From NCBI GenBank assembly GCA_028282925.1, contig JANQGV010000027.1, positions 1 to 40,380 of the forward strand: 40,380 nt of DNA, in the 5' to 3' direction. The notes under the pieces were generated by a model. The model made no database searches and had not been told where the DNA came from. It saw nothing but the letters and a program-made list of their open reading frames with translations. Of this stretch, positions 4,952 through 38,850 are shown piece by piece. The DNA is from Thermodesulfobacteriota bacterium (GTDB lineage Bacteria > Desulfobacterota > WTBG01 > CAIYCZ01 > CAIRTM01). The stretch's first letter is position 1. The number at the start of each line of letters is the position of its first letter. A program made the position numbers and the translations under genes.

Positions 4952-5077
4952 AAGACTTTCGACTGTCACCGTTTTGTTATGATTGCACCGGCCCTGACCA
5001 GCCGTGGTATCCGGATAGAGCATGAACTTCTCGGTCACCGCCCTGCGGGCGATTCTGAAAACAGTTACCCTGCCTGA
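4952..5077 (+). pseudogene. DUF488 gene fragment, partial duplicate of the gene at 6997-7614
   Basis: Read in the frame of positions 4958-5023, this stretch encodes FDCHRFVMIAPALTSRGIRI followed by EHE, almost the same as FDCHRFVLIAPALTSRGVRI in the intact DUF488 gene on the other strand. About 60 of 64 bases match. The similarity starts abruptly near 4952 and is lost by about 5023; a stop codon in the same frame is at 5075-5077. No start, N-terminal two-thirds or C-terminus of the family is present, so it is a remnant and not a gene. Together with the intact copy it forms an inverted repeat spanning about 2.2 kb. Confidence 0.75.
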
Positions 5078-6996: not shown

Positions 6997-7614
6997 TTAG
7001 GACTTTTTCTCTTCCTTGGAATACCCGATATCCCGGTTTCGTAAAACATAGGCCTCTTGCAGGCGCGCATCACGGGACTTGGGCGGATTGAACAATGAAG
7101 CCTGGAGGTTGTCCAGGTTGTATTTTTTTATAAGCCGGTCTTCAAGCGATTGCTGCGTCACGGTTTCCTCAACCGATAGAATATGCTCTATCCGGACGCC
7201 ACGGCTGGTCAGGGCCGGTGCAATCAGAACAAAACGGTGGCAGTCGAATGGTTCTTTTTCGGCGCACATCAGCGCAACCTTGTGGCTGCTCCTGATCATA
7301 TCCACTACCTGGTCTATCCCTTCCTTAAAAACGGTAAGCTCCCGCACTTTTTCAAAGTTCACGATTCCATCGGGAAAGTAGACCTCCGGCTCCTCGCGCC
7401 GGGCGCCCAAGCGATCGCCCAGAAACAGGTAGGTAATGTCTTCCAGCTCAAGGTCGGTTTTCAGTGTTTCACGGTTGAACTGGGGGTTGAAACGGCTGTA
7501 AGGAGTGCTGCGCACATCGATAATGCTGTCAATCATATACGCCGTTAAAAGCGCTGTATAAGTTGCAATCGTATTGGTCGAGTGGCCGATGGTCACGCAG
7601 CGCAGGATTTCCAT
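6997..7614 (-). CDS. DUF488 domain-containing protein
   Basis: A 205-residue member of the DUF488 family, whose biochemical role is not established. The family hallmarks are all visible: TIGHSTNT at the N-terminus, DVRSTPYSRFNPQFN, LGDRLGAR, and the Cys-rich ALMCAEKEPFDCHR region, which suggests a redox, nucleic-acid or metal-related site. The start ATG at 7614 lies two bases past the stop of the upstream deaminase gene and has GGGGAG upstream, pointing to translational coupling; an in-frame ATG at 7635 inside the deaminase gene is an alternative. A piece of this gene is duplicated in inverted orientation at 4952-5023. Confidence 0.88.
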   Translation of the reverse strand: MEILRCVTIGHSTNTIATYTALLTAYMIDSIIDVRSTPYSRFNPQFNRETLKTDLELEDITYLFLGDRLGARREEPEVYFPDGIVNFEKVRELTVFKEGIDQVVDMIRSSHKVALMCAEKEPFDCHRFVLIAPALTSRGVRIEHILSVEETVTQQSLEDRLIKKYNLDNLQASLFNPPKSRDARLQEAYVLRNRDIGYSKEEKKS

Positions 7615-25248: not shown

Positions 25249-25320
25249 TCTTTATCTCAAAAATCTTTTATAGCATTTATTAAAATTTTAACAGATGTGG
25301 GGCGGCTTGGGGTTCGACCC

Positions 25321-25600
25321 TTTGCAACGCAGCCGAGTGCAGCGCTTTCAGGAGGAGATAAGGGTCGACATGTTTGAGCCCCGTTTTTCAGGAGCGAGTT
25401 TGTTGACCCGCCGACTGAAATCGTGCCGCGAGGGTATCCCGCCGACGGCGGGACACGTTGCAGGGCGCCCTTTCTTTTCCCCCTTTTCTTTGGGGCGAAC
25501 AAAGAAAAGGGGTAGAAGACGCGCAGCGTCTTATAAACGTGTTCTTCCCGAAACGCTAAAAGCTTTTCGGGTCGCACGGCCAAAGGCCGTGGGATTATAA
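25321..25600 (+). repeat. Structured intergenic repeat, family 1, copy A
   Basis: First of three related elements in the window (others at 30743 and 38493). The 5' half, to about 25470, is nearly identical to the other copies and folds as a nested set: GGGTC (25362)/GACCC (25405) around a GCCCC hairpin, and CCCGCC-gac-GGCGGG (25438-25452). The 3' half carries four hairpins: 25480-25492 with 25500-25512 (13 bp), 25516-25522 with 25526-25532, 25547-25553 with 25565-25571, and 25575-25581 with 25585-25591. It lacks the about 100-bp leader found in copies B and C and lies between the convergent kinase and TPR genes. Confidence 0.85.
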
Positions 25601-28030: not shown

Positions 28031-28139
28031 AGGGCTGTCGGAGAATGTTCAGATACAAGGCGCGCAACGCCGTAGATGGGTCAGTCCTCCGTCCCGATGT
28101 GTCGGGACTACGGAGGGTGGACATTCTCCGGGCAGCCCT
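28031..28139. repeat. Palindromic repeat element, family 2, copy 1
   Basis: A 109-bp element with terminal inverted repeats: AGGGCTGTCGGAGAATGT on the left matches ACATTCTCCGGGCAGCCCT on the right with one mismatch and one extra base. The interior holds another long hairpin (CCTCCGT...CCCGA/TCGGG...ACGGAGG). A 26-bp block at 28040-28065 is identical to 35195-35220 in the second copy. It fills the gap between the response regulator and the MinD-like gene and reaches the stop codon of the former. Confidence 0.8.
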
Positions 28140-28817
28140 CTACTTTTTGTTGAATTCCCAGTCAATATCTGGATATAACCTCAGGGCGCACTCGGGACAA
28201 AGGCCATGGGTAAATTCAGTTTCCGAGCGCTCTTCAATATATTCTTCAAGCTTTTGCCAGTAGCCCGTATCGTCCTTGATTTTTTTACACTCGGCGCATA
28301 TCGGCAGCATACCCTGCAACTGTTTAACATGGTTCAGCGCTTCCTGTAATTCTTTCACCAGTTTTTTTTGTTTTGTTTCCGAGCGTTTTCTTTTGGCCAG
28401 CTCTTTCTTTAAATCGTCATGGGCCTTTTTCAACGTCAGCGCCGTTTTGACCCGGGCCAGAAATTCGGTGTTTTTTATGGGTTTGGTTATGAAATCGGTG
28501 GAGCCCGCGTCAAACGTTTTTTTAATGGCTTCGTCGGAATCCAGGGCGGCTCCGGTCATCATAATAACCGGTATGTCCAGTGCCTGCTTCTTTTTGCGCA
28601 ACTGTTTACAAAAACCATACCCGTCCATTTCCGGCATGACAATGTCAAGAATCACAAGATCCGGCGGGTCTTTCTGAACCAGGAGCAAACCTTCCTTGGC
28701 CGATGTTGTGGTTTGAATGTCGGTATAGCCGCTGCTTTCCAGTCGTCGCTGCAGCAAAGCCACGCTGCTCATATCATCGTCAATGATGAGAATCTTCATC
28801 CGGAACAGATCATCCAT
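28140..28817 (-). CDS. Response regulator with coiled coil and Cys-rich C-terminal domain
   Basis: A 225-residue protein: receiver domain (about 7-125) with phosphoacceptor Asp58 (ILDIVMPEMDG) and the conserved Lys in TKP, a charged coiled coil (about 128-168), and a small C-terminal module (about 170-216) with CAEC (174-177), His204 and CPEC (207-210). The last module recurs behind REC and PAS domains in Desulfobacterota and looks like a zinc site; its role is unknown to me. It lacks a DNA-binding domain. The ATG at 28817 has AGGAG eight bases upstream. Neighbours are hldD upstream and the MinD-like gene downstream beyond a palindromic element. Confidence 0.9.
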   Translation of the reverse strand: MDDLFRMKILIIDDDMSSVALLQRRLESSGYTDIQTTTSAKEGLLLVQKDPPDLVILDIVMPEMDGYGFCKQLRKKKQALDIPVIMMTGAALDSDEAIKKTFDAGSTDFITKPIKNTEFLARVKTALTLKKAHDDLKKELAKRKRSETKQKKLVKELQEALNHVKQLQGMLPICAECKKIKDDTGYWQKLEEYIEERSETEFTHGLCPECALRLYPDIDWEFNKK

Positions 28818-30742: not shown

Positions 30743-31195
30743 GTAGCCCCTTAAAGAGGGGGGTGAAAATTACAACGTTTAAATGTATGCAGCATTGCTT
30801 ATTAAAAGTTTTTACCTTTGATTAATTACGGGCTTTCTTAATCCCATTGCAACGCAGCCGAGTGCAACGATTTCAGGAGGAAATAAGGGTCAACATGTTT
30901 GAGCCCCGTTCTTCAGGGGCGAGTTTGTTGACCCGCCGACTGAAATCGTGCCGCGAGGGCATCCCGCCGCTGGCGGGACAAGTTGCAGGGCGCCTTTTCT
31001 TTTGCCTACTTTGAGTCAATCCGCCGGATTGATCGCTTGCAGCTCTTTGTCGCAGGCAAAAAGCAAAGTGCGTAGCTCTTGTCACCGAAGGTGGCAAGAC
31101 AAAGTAGGCAGAGACGCTTGCGTCTTTTATAATCTCTTTCTACCCCGGATAGGTAAAACCTCTCCGGGGTCCACCGCCGGCGGTGGTGGATTTAT
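30743..31195 (+). repeat. Structured intergenic repeat, family 1, copy B
   Basis: Largest copy. A leader (30743-30844) with a CCCC/GGGG hairpin and CTTTGATTAATTACGGGCTT is shared with copy C. The core begins near 30845; its central stem ACGATTTCAG (30867-30876) pairs perfectly with 30940-30949. The arm that is a simple hairpin in A and C is here TGCCTACTTTG (31003-31013) paired with 31100-31110, with about 85 bases inserted that fold into further hairpins (such as CACC-gaa-GGTG at 31083-31093). Then come GACGC/GCGTC (31113/31120), CCCCGGA/TCCGGGG (31143/31163) and CCACCG/CGGTGG. It lies between polA and the hydrolase gene. Confidence 0.85.
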
Positions 31196-38492: not shown

Positions 38493-38850
38493 ATAGCTCC
38501 CCAGAGGGGGCTAAAATTAAAACGCTATTGCATGCTTTTTCCTTTGATTAATTACGGGCTTCCTTAATTCCCATTGCAACGCAGCCGAGTGCAACGATTT
38601 AAGGAGGAAACAAGGGTCGACATGTTTGAGCCCCGTTTTTCAGGGGCGAGTTTGTTGACCCGCCGACTGAAATCGTGCCGCGAGGGAATCCCGCCTGACA
38701 AGGCGGGACAAGTTGCAGGGTGGCCTTTCTTTTGCATCCTTTTCTTTGGCCAGCAAAGAAAAGGATGAGAAGACGCGAAGCGTCTTATTAAAAGGGTCCC
38801 CCGGACCGAGAAAACCTCTCCGGGTCACTGCCAAAGGCGGTGGGTTTTAT
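38493..38850 (+). repeat. Structured intergenic repeat, family 1, copy C
   Basis: Third copy, in the same orientation as A and B, downstream of the penicillin-binding gene. The leader has an AGC-CCCC/GGGG-GCT hairpin (38493-38512). The core starts at 38574. Hairpins: CCCGCC/GGCGGG (38690-38706 region), ATCCTTTTCTTTG (38736-38748) with 38754-38766 (13 bp), AAGACGC/GCGTCTT (38770-38786 region), CCCGGA/TCCGGG (38800/38819), CACTGCC/GGCGGTG (38826/38836). Confidence 0.85.

Follow-up and report, generated by a model that had tools for sequence, protein, structure and literature searches.

A high-copy intergenic element with a putative strand-specific fold, pseudoknot and predicted triple helix in a Thermodesulfobacteriota genome

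Copies of the element in the window and in the host genome

The window, a 40,380-nucleotide stretch of a Thermodesulfobacteriota assembly (GCA_028282925.1, contig JANQGV010000027.1), carries on its plus strand copies A, B and C of one interspersed family, whose element consists of a 148-nt core (P1–P4) and a pseudoknot module of ~65 nt, the whole unit spanning ~240–450 nt. In copy A, the conserved core (25318–25465) is a closed multi-helix domain, delineated by a 63-copy host alignment, a consensus fold and family covariation, in which the alignment and consensus fold also place a k-turn-like internal loop (TGTTTGAG/GAGTT). It is followed by the pseudoknot strand CGCCC (25466–25470), whose partner GGGCG lies in the P5 loop (25493–25497) as judged from the sequence and from loop/partner covariation across taxa, and by a pyrimidine tract (TTTCTTTTC, 25471–25479) predicted from register covariation to form a third strand along the purine strand of P5 (AAAGAAAAG, 25501–25509). 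The P5 hairpin itself (25480–25512) has 13 bp, arms CCCCTTTTCTTTG/CAAAGAAAAGGGG and the loop GGGCGAA; downstream of it come P6 (GACGC/GCGTC, 25518–25530), whose pairing is kept across copies with 5–7 G-U and 0 A-C combinations, and P7 (CCCGAAA/TTTCGGG, 25547–25571) and P8 (CACGGCC/GGCCGTG, 25575–25591), both intact in copy A and decayed in most other copies.

Copy B (core and 3' module at 30843–31190) is preceded by a 5' extension from about 30700; its P5 arms TGCCTACTTTG/CAAAGTAGGCA (31003–31013 with 31100–31110) are separated by an 86-nt insert, and its P7 reads CCCCGGA/TCCGGGG (31143–31169). Copy C (38570–38850, with a 5' extension from about 38450) combines P5 arms GCATCCTTTTCTTTG/CAAAGAAAAGGATG (38734–38767) with the pseudoknot strands TGGC (38721–38724) and GCCA (38749–38752), a pyrimidine tract at 38726–38733, P6 at 38772–38784 and a P8, CACTGCC/GGCGGTG, that contains one G.T pair. 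A preliminary description of the interval 25480–25591 had taken P5, P7 and P8 for the first, later and last arms of a 3' hairpin array with compensatory base changes between the copies. All of the arms that it quoted lie at the positions given for them in A, B and C, and the compensatory changes are real; the interval is the 3' part of copy A, with the core situated 5' of it.

According to the covariance model R1, the family numbers at least 150 members in the host genome, an assembly of 5.6 Mb in 324 contigs, in which individual DNA searches gave at least 40 matches each and the 1.73 Mb cut as loci contain about 99 element matches; the host copies are singlets. Many host contigs start or stop within an element copy, which points to the element as a main cause of the assembly breaks and to an underestimated copy number. 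B, C and over half of the remaining copies form class I, distinguished by a ~150-nt 5' extension with two hairpins and an AT-rich leader, by subterminal palindromes and by ends that share a weak terminal repeat (TTAGTAA..). Inserts interrupt some copies, either in the P4 loop (~180 nt) or, as in B, in the P5 loop (~86 nt).

A second interspersed repeat, GCTGTCGGAGAATGTTC...GCGCAACGCCGTAGATGG...ACATTCTCCGGGCAGCC, is found at 28034–28142; its motif AACGCCGTAGATG (at 28066) occurs 22 times in 1.73 Mb of host genome, in some cases directly downstream of the element. The window also contains a 66-nt inverted repeat (4958–5023 and 7183–7248; 94% complementarity, 2159 nt between the arms) that resembles two related coding stretches on opposite strands.

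Core fold and the uneven upkeep of the 3' hairpins

The core of the host copies is too conserved for covariation (0 of 46 pairs significant within host copies alone), so that relatives were needed for a signal. In 27 distinct sequences from same-family genomes, 94.7% of core cells are paired, compared to 34–48% with slid partners, 36 of the 46 pairs carry double changes, and covariation scores 0.625, compared to 0.197 upon shuffling, with 0 of 500 shuffles as high. Fitting the alignment to the model favors pairing, yet both the slid and the shuffled controls fall far below these values. A phylogeny-aware test, based on our own Python implementation of an R-scape-style null rather than on R-scape itself (FastTree tree, Fitch reconstruction, branch-wise reshuffled substitutions and a G-test with APC), finds 20 of the 46 core pairs significant in these relatives, and 8/8 hits of an all-pairs scan fall inside the proposed structure. 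The core pairs are also asymmetric between strands, with 204 G-U versus 10 A-C combinations in the 63 host copies and 83 versus 4 in the same-family relatives, and include near-invariant G-U pairs at columns 50/87 and 21/111; highly conserved unpaired positions accompany them in the 63-copy host alignment.

Upkeep of the 3' hairpins was assessed in the 32 host copies that carry a long 3' tail. In these, Watson-Crick pairing stands at 96% for P5 (5 G-U, 0 A-C and two significant pairs) and likewise at 96% for P6 (7 G-U, 0 A-C); P7 and P8 reach 64% (23 G-U, 29 A-C) and 62% (15 G-U, 28 A-C), respectively, with zero significant pairs in either, figures that may be somewhat low as the tail alignments are noisier than those of the core. 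The class I set (31 copies, 29 tails) gives the same picture, with P5, P6, P7 and P8 paired at 100%, 96%, 62% and 63% and the two upstream hairpins at 62% and 61%. None of the four flanking hairpins (P7, P8 and the upstream two) has a consistent G-U excess in this set, and P7 and P8 together show 20 G-U against 42 A-C in copies whose core is intact. The G-U/A-C difference between the core and the flanking hairpins has a p of 6e-30, or 5e-9 without three mostly G-U pairs.

These figures show the core, P5 and P6 to be maintained on the plus strand while the flanking palindromes decay without strand preference. Such asymmetric upkeep tells selection from template-switch hairpin repair, a process blind to strand. 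The cores could also be held alike, and their retention mimicked, by gene conversion among the copies. The preliminary description had read the paired substitutions as the signature of selection on a folded molecule, to be confirmed by covariation over many copies. That reading holds for P5, with its two significant pairs, for P6 and for the core 5' of the interval; it does not extend to P7 and P8, whose pairing in A, B and C is not representative of a family in which they are 62–64% Watson-Crick. As selected RNA stems, P7 and P8 are rejected on account of pairing of ~62%, no G-U excess and no covariation, and they look like unselected, decaying palindromes.

Pseudoknot, predicted triple helix and spread across taxa

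The segment that precedes the U-tract is complementary to the P5 loop in many guises (TCGC/GCGA, TGGC/GCCA, TGTC/GACA, TGCC/GGCA), and the copies in the window fit this pattern (TGGC/GCCA in C, CGCC/GGCG in A). Over 91 distinct non-family combinations, the longest complementary run averages 3.98, compared to 2.72 when shuffled and to a maximum of 3.02 in 1000 shuffles; within the host genome alone, which offers 19 combinations, the pseudoknot covariation is not significant. The cross-taxon covariation shows that segment and loop would pair as an H-type pseudoknot with the U-tract as its first loop.

The tract, of the form T(a)CT(b), mirrors the 5' arm of P5, its direction being parallel to that of the purine strand, CA(c)GA(d). 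Where this strand reads A4GA3, b is at most 3 in 30/30 cases; with A3GA4, b is at least 4 in 139/153; and with A3GA3, b is again at most 3 in 12/12. The A4GA3 versus A3GA4 contrast, for which the register-variant class was enlarged by a pattern search that left the tract unconstrained, is significant overall (Fisher 5e-24) and within Methylococcaceae (4e-11), Burkholderiales (6e-5) and other taxa (9e-7), and the host genome yields 6e-6 for A3GA3 versus A3GA4. This register is the reverse of what a direct duplication would leave, so that the specific prediction is a pyrimidine-motif triplex, in which the U-tract and the P5 purine strand would form a U.A-U / C+.G-C triple helix. Covariation has thereby detected both the loop-stem pairing and the parallel pyrimidine-purine register expected of an H-type pseudoknot with a triple helix. 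On this comparative evidence, selection has almost certainly acted on the core and P5 as a fold of one strand, inclusive of the pseudoknot and the triplex register.

In the H-type pseudoknot of telomerase RNA, a U-rich first loop runs along the purine strand of the second stem and forms U.A-U triples. The element has the same topology, as predicted from covariation, but differs from telomerase RNA by a C+.G-C triple in the middle and has no sequence relation to it. Among DNA repeats, TM_ECO/BoxC is a repeated intergenic triplex-forming sequence of many bacterial genomes (PMC4666352), a 37-nt G-rich purine motif of the pattern CCCTCNCCC-N-GGGNGAGGG-N-GGGNGAGGG. Identity with it is rejected, as the element has a large core and a pseudoknot that contains a pyrimidine motif, and the patterns differ by inspection; the general A/T-rich counts of that study may include P5 motifs, and it describes no core, pseudoknot or RNA role (PMC4666352).

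The core is present at E<=0.001 in five of eight other same-family genomes, with 3–30 copies each, and was not found with R1 in the more distant relatives sampled. The P5 hairpin pattern is more widespread, with at least 120 stretches in GTDB species genomes belonging to Burkholderiales, Xanthomonadales, Methylococcales, Aeromonas, Desulfobacterota, Selenomonadales and some Bacteroidota, many of which share the upstream order of parts with the window element. A model built solely from the window's family (R2) places the core where it is expected, next to P5, in Rhodoferax (E 9e-11), Polaromonas, Hylemonella, Silvimonas and Acidovorax as well as in a Desulfobacterales and an ectothiorhodospiraceal MAG, so that what is common across phyla is an architecture beyond the P5 hairpin alone; in Selenomonadales and Bacteroidota, the match is limited to the P5/U-tract module. 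No viral match was obtained by an IMG/VR scan with an extended P5 pattern or by phage BLAST, and plasmid searches returned few records, all non-mobilizable and with no annotation under the matches.

Several features are specific to these relatives. Beta- and Gammaproteobacterial copies have an apparent second H-type pseudoknot just 3' of P5 (e.g. CTCGGCTGTCGGGCCGAGACCCGAC), both stems of which vary in paired fashion. Methylomonas, Dyella, Aeromonas and Selenomonad copies bear AnGGA-loop hairpins (e.g. GTACATGGATGTAC) reminiscent of CsrA/RsmA binding sites. In Burkholderiales and relatives, tandem repeats rich in T and G, for example (CTGTTTGG)n or (GTTGCTTTTGAA)n, lie 5' of the element, and the spacers of doublets sometimes have a central palindrome (ACAAGGACACGCC..GGCGTGTCCTTGT).

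Mobility, placement and the nature of the selected molecule

An orthologous Methylomonas gene pair encloses the element in three genomes and lacks it in two, where the intergenic region is 53–62 nt; exact element boundaries are unreadable at this empty site. Core pairs less than ~200 nt apart are oriented head-to-head (9 loci, in relatives and Burkholderiales). In one subfamily of Methylomonas RAYT genes, a same-strand element lies downstream in 5/5 genomes and an inverted element upstream in 4/5; the former arrangement is seen at 7/28 Methylomonas RAYT loci, about three of them independent. A RAYT gene flanked by inverted elements is the organization of REPIN/RAYT systems (PMC3116915). In the host genome, no element copy lies within 1.5 kb of the RAYT loci examined and, with host copies being singlets, RAYT mobilization there is an extrapolation; that the element is mobilized by RAYT is plausible, if rather less than probable.

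The same observations bear on what molecule was selected. If the element were a very large REP/REPIN without host function, its fold could have been kept by transposition competence, as the one-strand ssDNA substrate of a Y1 HUH (RAYT) transposase. The inverted doublets of the relatives and the Methylomonas RAYT genes with a same-strand element downstream (5/5 in the one subfamily, plus two other loci) agree with such a scenario; moreover, one-strand G.T tolerance would yield an identical G-U/A-C asymmetry, and T.A-T triplexes are also compatible with folded ssDNA. However, RNA is the more typical setting for near-invariant G-U pairs and a k-turn-like loop, decayed flanks beside an intact core would need a recent spread of the core alone, and the host has singlets with no RAYT nearby. 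Overall, we regard ssDNA as rather unlikely to be the selected molecule, and RNA as probable.

Placement was derived from rough ORF calls around 63 host copies: 22 are flanked by convergent genes, 20 run in tandem with both neighbors, 17 are antisense to both and 4 are flanked by divergent genes, compared to control gaps of 88 convergent, 216 tandem and 91 divergent. Copies are depleted between divergent genes (4/63, p 0.0013), and 42/63 have an upstream gene in the same orientation (p 0.011). REPs are similarly sited at gene ends, and such placement speaks against a leader or riboswitch; on gene orientation, the riboswitch-like leader was rejected. More broadly, a cis-regulatory leader or protein-binding RNA that multiplied, whether riboswitch-like or a CsrA sponge, could draw on the conserved unpaired positions of the core and on the AnGGA-loop hairpins of the Methylomonas, Dyella, Aeromonas and Selenomonad copies. 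Yet the downstream gene is not co-oriented in 39/63 cases and 22/63 copies sit between convergent genes; AnGGA hairpin loops are not seen in the window copies, and at least 150 copies per genome are far above known riboswitches, so that this alternative appears improbable.

Very improbable is a mutational origin, whereby template switching would repair imperfect hairpins and gene conversion spread the corrected versions: P7, P8 and the two upstream hairpins, palindromes with paired differences and no sign of strand-specific selection, would suit it, but strand-symmetric repair would not yield the excess of G-U over A-C in the core, P5 and P6, and the pseudoknot and mirror-register triplex covary though they are not palindromes, so that for the core and P5 it is already disfavored.

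The reading that we favor, at roughly even chances, is that of a non-autonomous element, similar to a REPIN, with a core that folds as RNA and a probable action at gene ends. The interval at 25480–25591 would then form the 3' portion of this intergenic, high-copy element, the core and pseudoknot module of which would be kept by selection as a one-strand fold, most likely RNA. The element would spread in DNA form, and in relatives a RAYT (Y1 HUH) transposase would handle it in trans as an inverted doublet, in a manner resembling the spread of a very large REPIN, and surviving copies would be useful in cis at gene ends. Gene-end placement makes a transcript-end element the most likely role, although it is a doubtful proposal in itself that the pseudoknot and triplex, located at a transcript end, would stop 3' exonucleases or mark that end. 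Only tentatively can the element be considered an undescribed cross-phylum class of large RNAs that spread in REPIN-like fashion and whose copies were retained as transcript-end RNAs at 100 or more loci per genome.

Rfam 15, searched at gathering score and at E<=10 with families that include HEARO/IscB omega RNA, group II introns and riboswitches, gives no match for the window or the element-bearing stretch; one unrelated TwoAYGGAY match lies elsewhere in an Aeromonas locus. Raw-sequence and concept searches of open-access PMC found no description of the element. It resembles REP/REPIN-RAYT systems (PMC3116915, PMC2817692) in being high-copy, intergenic and sited at gene ends, with inverted doublets in its relatives and a Methylomonas RAYT gene flanked by inverted elements. 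Unlike REPs, which are single imperfect palindromes of 20–40 nt, it has a size of ~240–450 nt, with a 148-nt multi-helix core and a ~65-nt module containing the pseudoknot and predicted triplex; it also differs from REP/REPIN in covarying across phyla and in the host copies being singlets without a linked RAYT.

The element is similar to MITEs in being non-autonomous and high-copy, with subterminal palindromes and a weak terminal repeat in class I, and dissimilar in that no target-site duplication or partner transposase came to light for it; to our knowledge, MITE interiors are normally not kept as a fold across phyla. BRE, which is likewise intergenic and occurs in abundance in Polaromonas JS666 and further Burkholderiales, was judged, from its published description as a ~90 bp tandem VNTR, to be different (PMC3110155). 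Whereas bacterial interspersed repeats are usually seen as simple palindromes whose folds are due to symmetry, the present element, a repeat without an Rfam entry, has a complex, apparently strand-specific fold, and its pseudoknot and predicted triple helix rest on independent covariation. It makes the choice between selfish DNA substrate, functional RNA or both directly testable, and offers RNA biology a candidate natural triple-helix module with very many sequence variants.

RT-driven (SINE-like) retroposition was rejected, the only RVT_1 match of the host being a 311-aa retron-like RT, a type judged by eye. Encoded on host contig C308 (15581–16171), this RT is preceded by an unknown 319-aa gene, with which it may constitute a defense locus.
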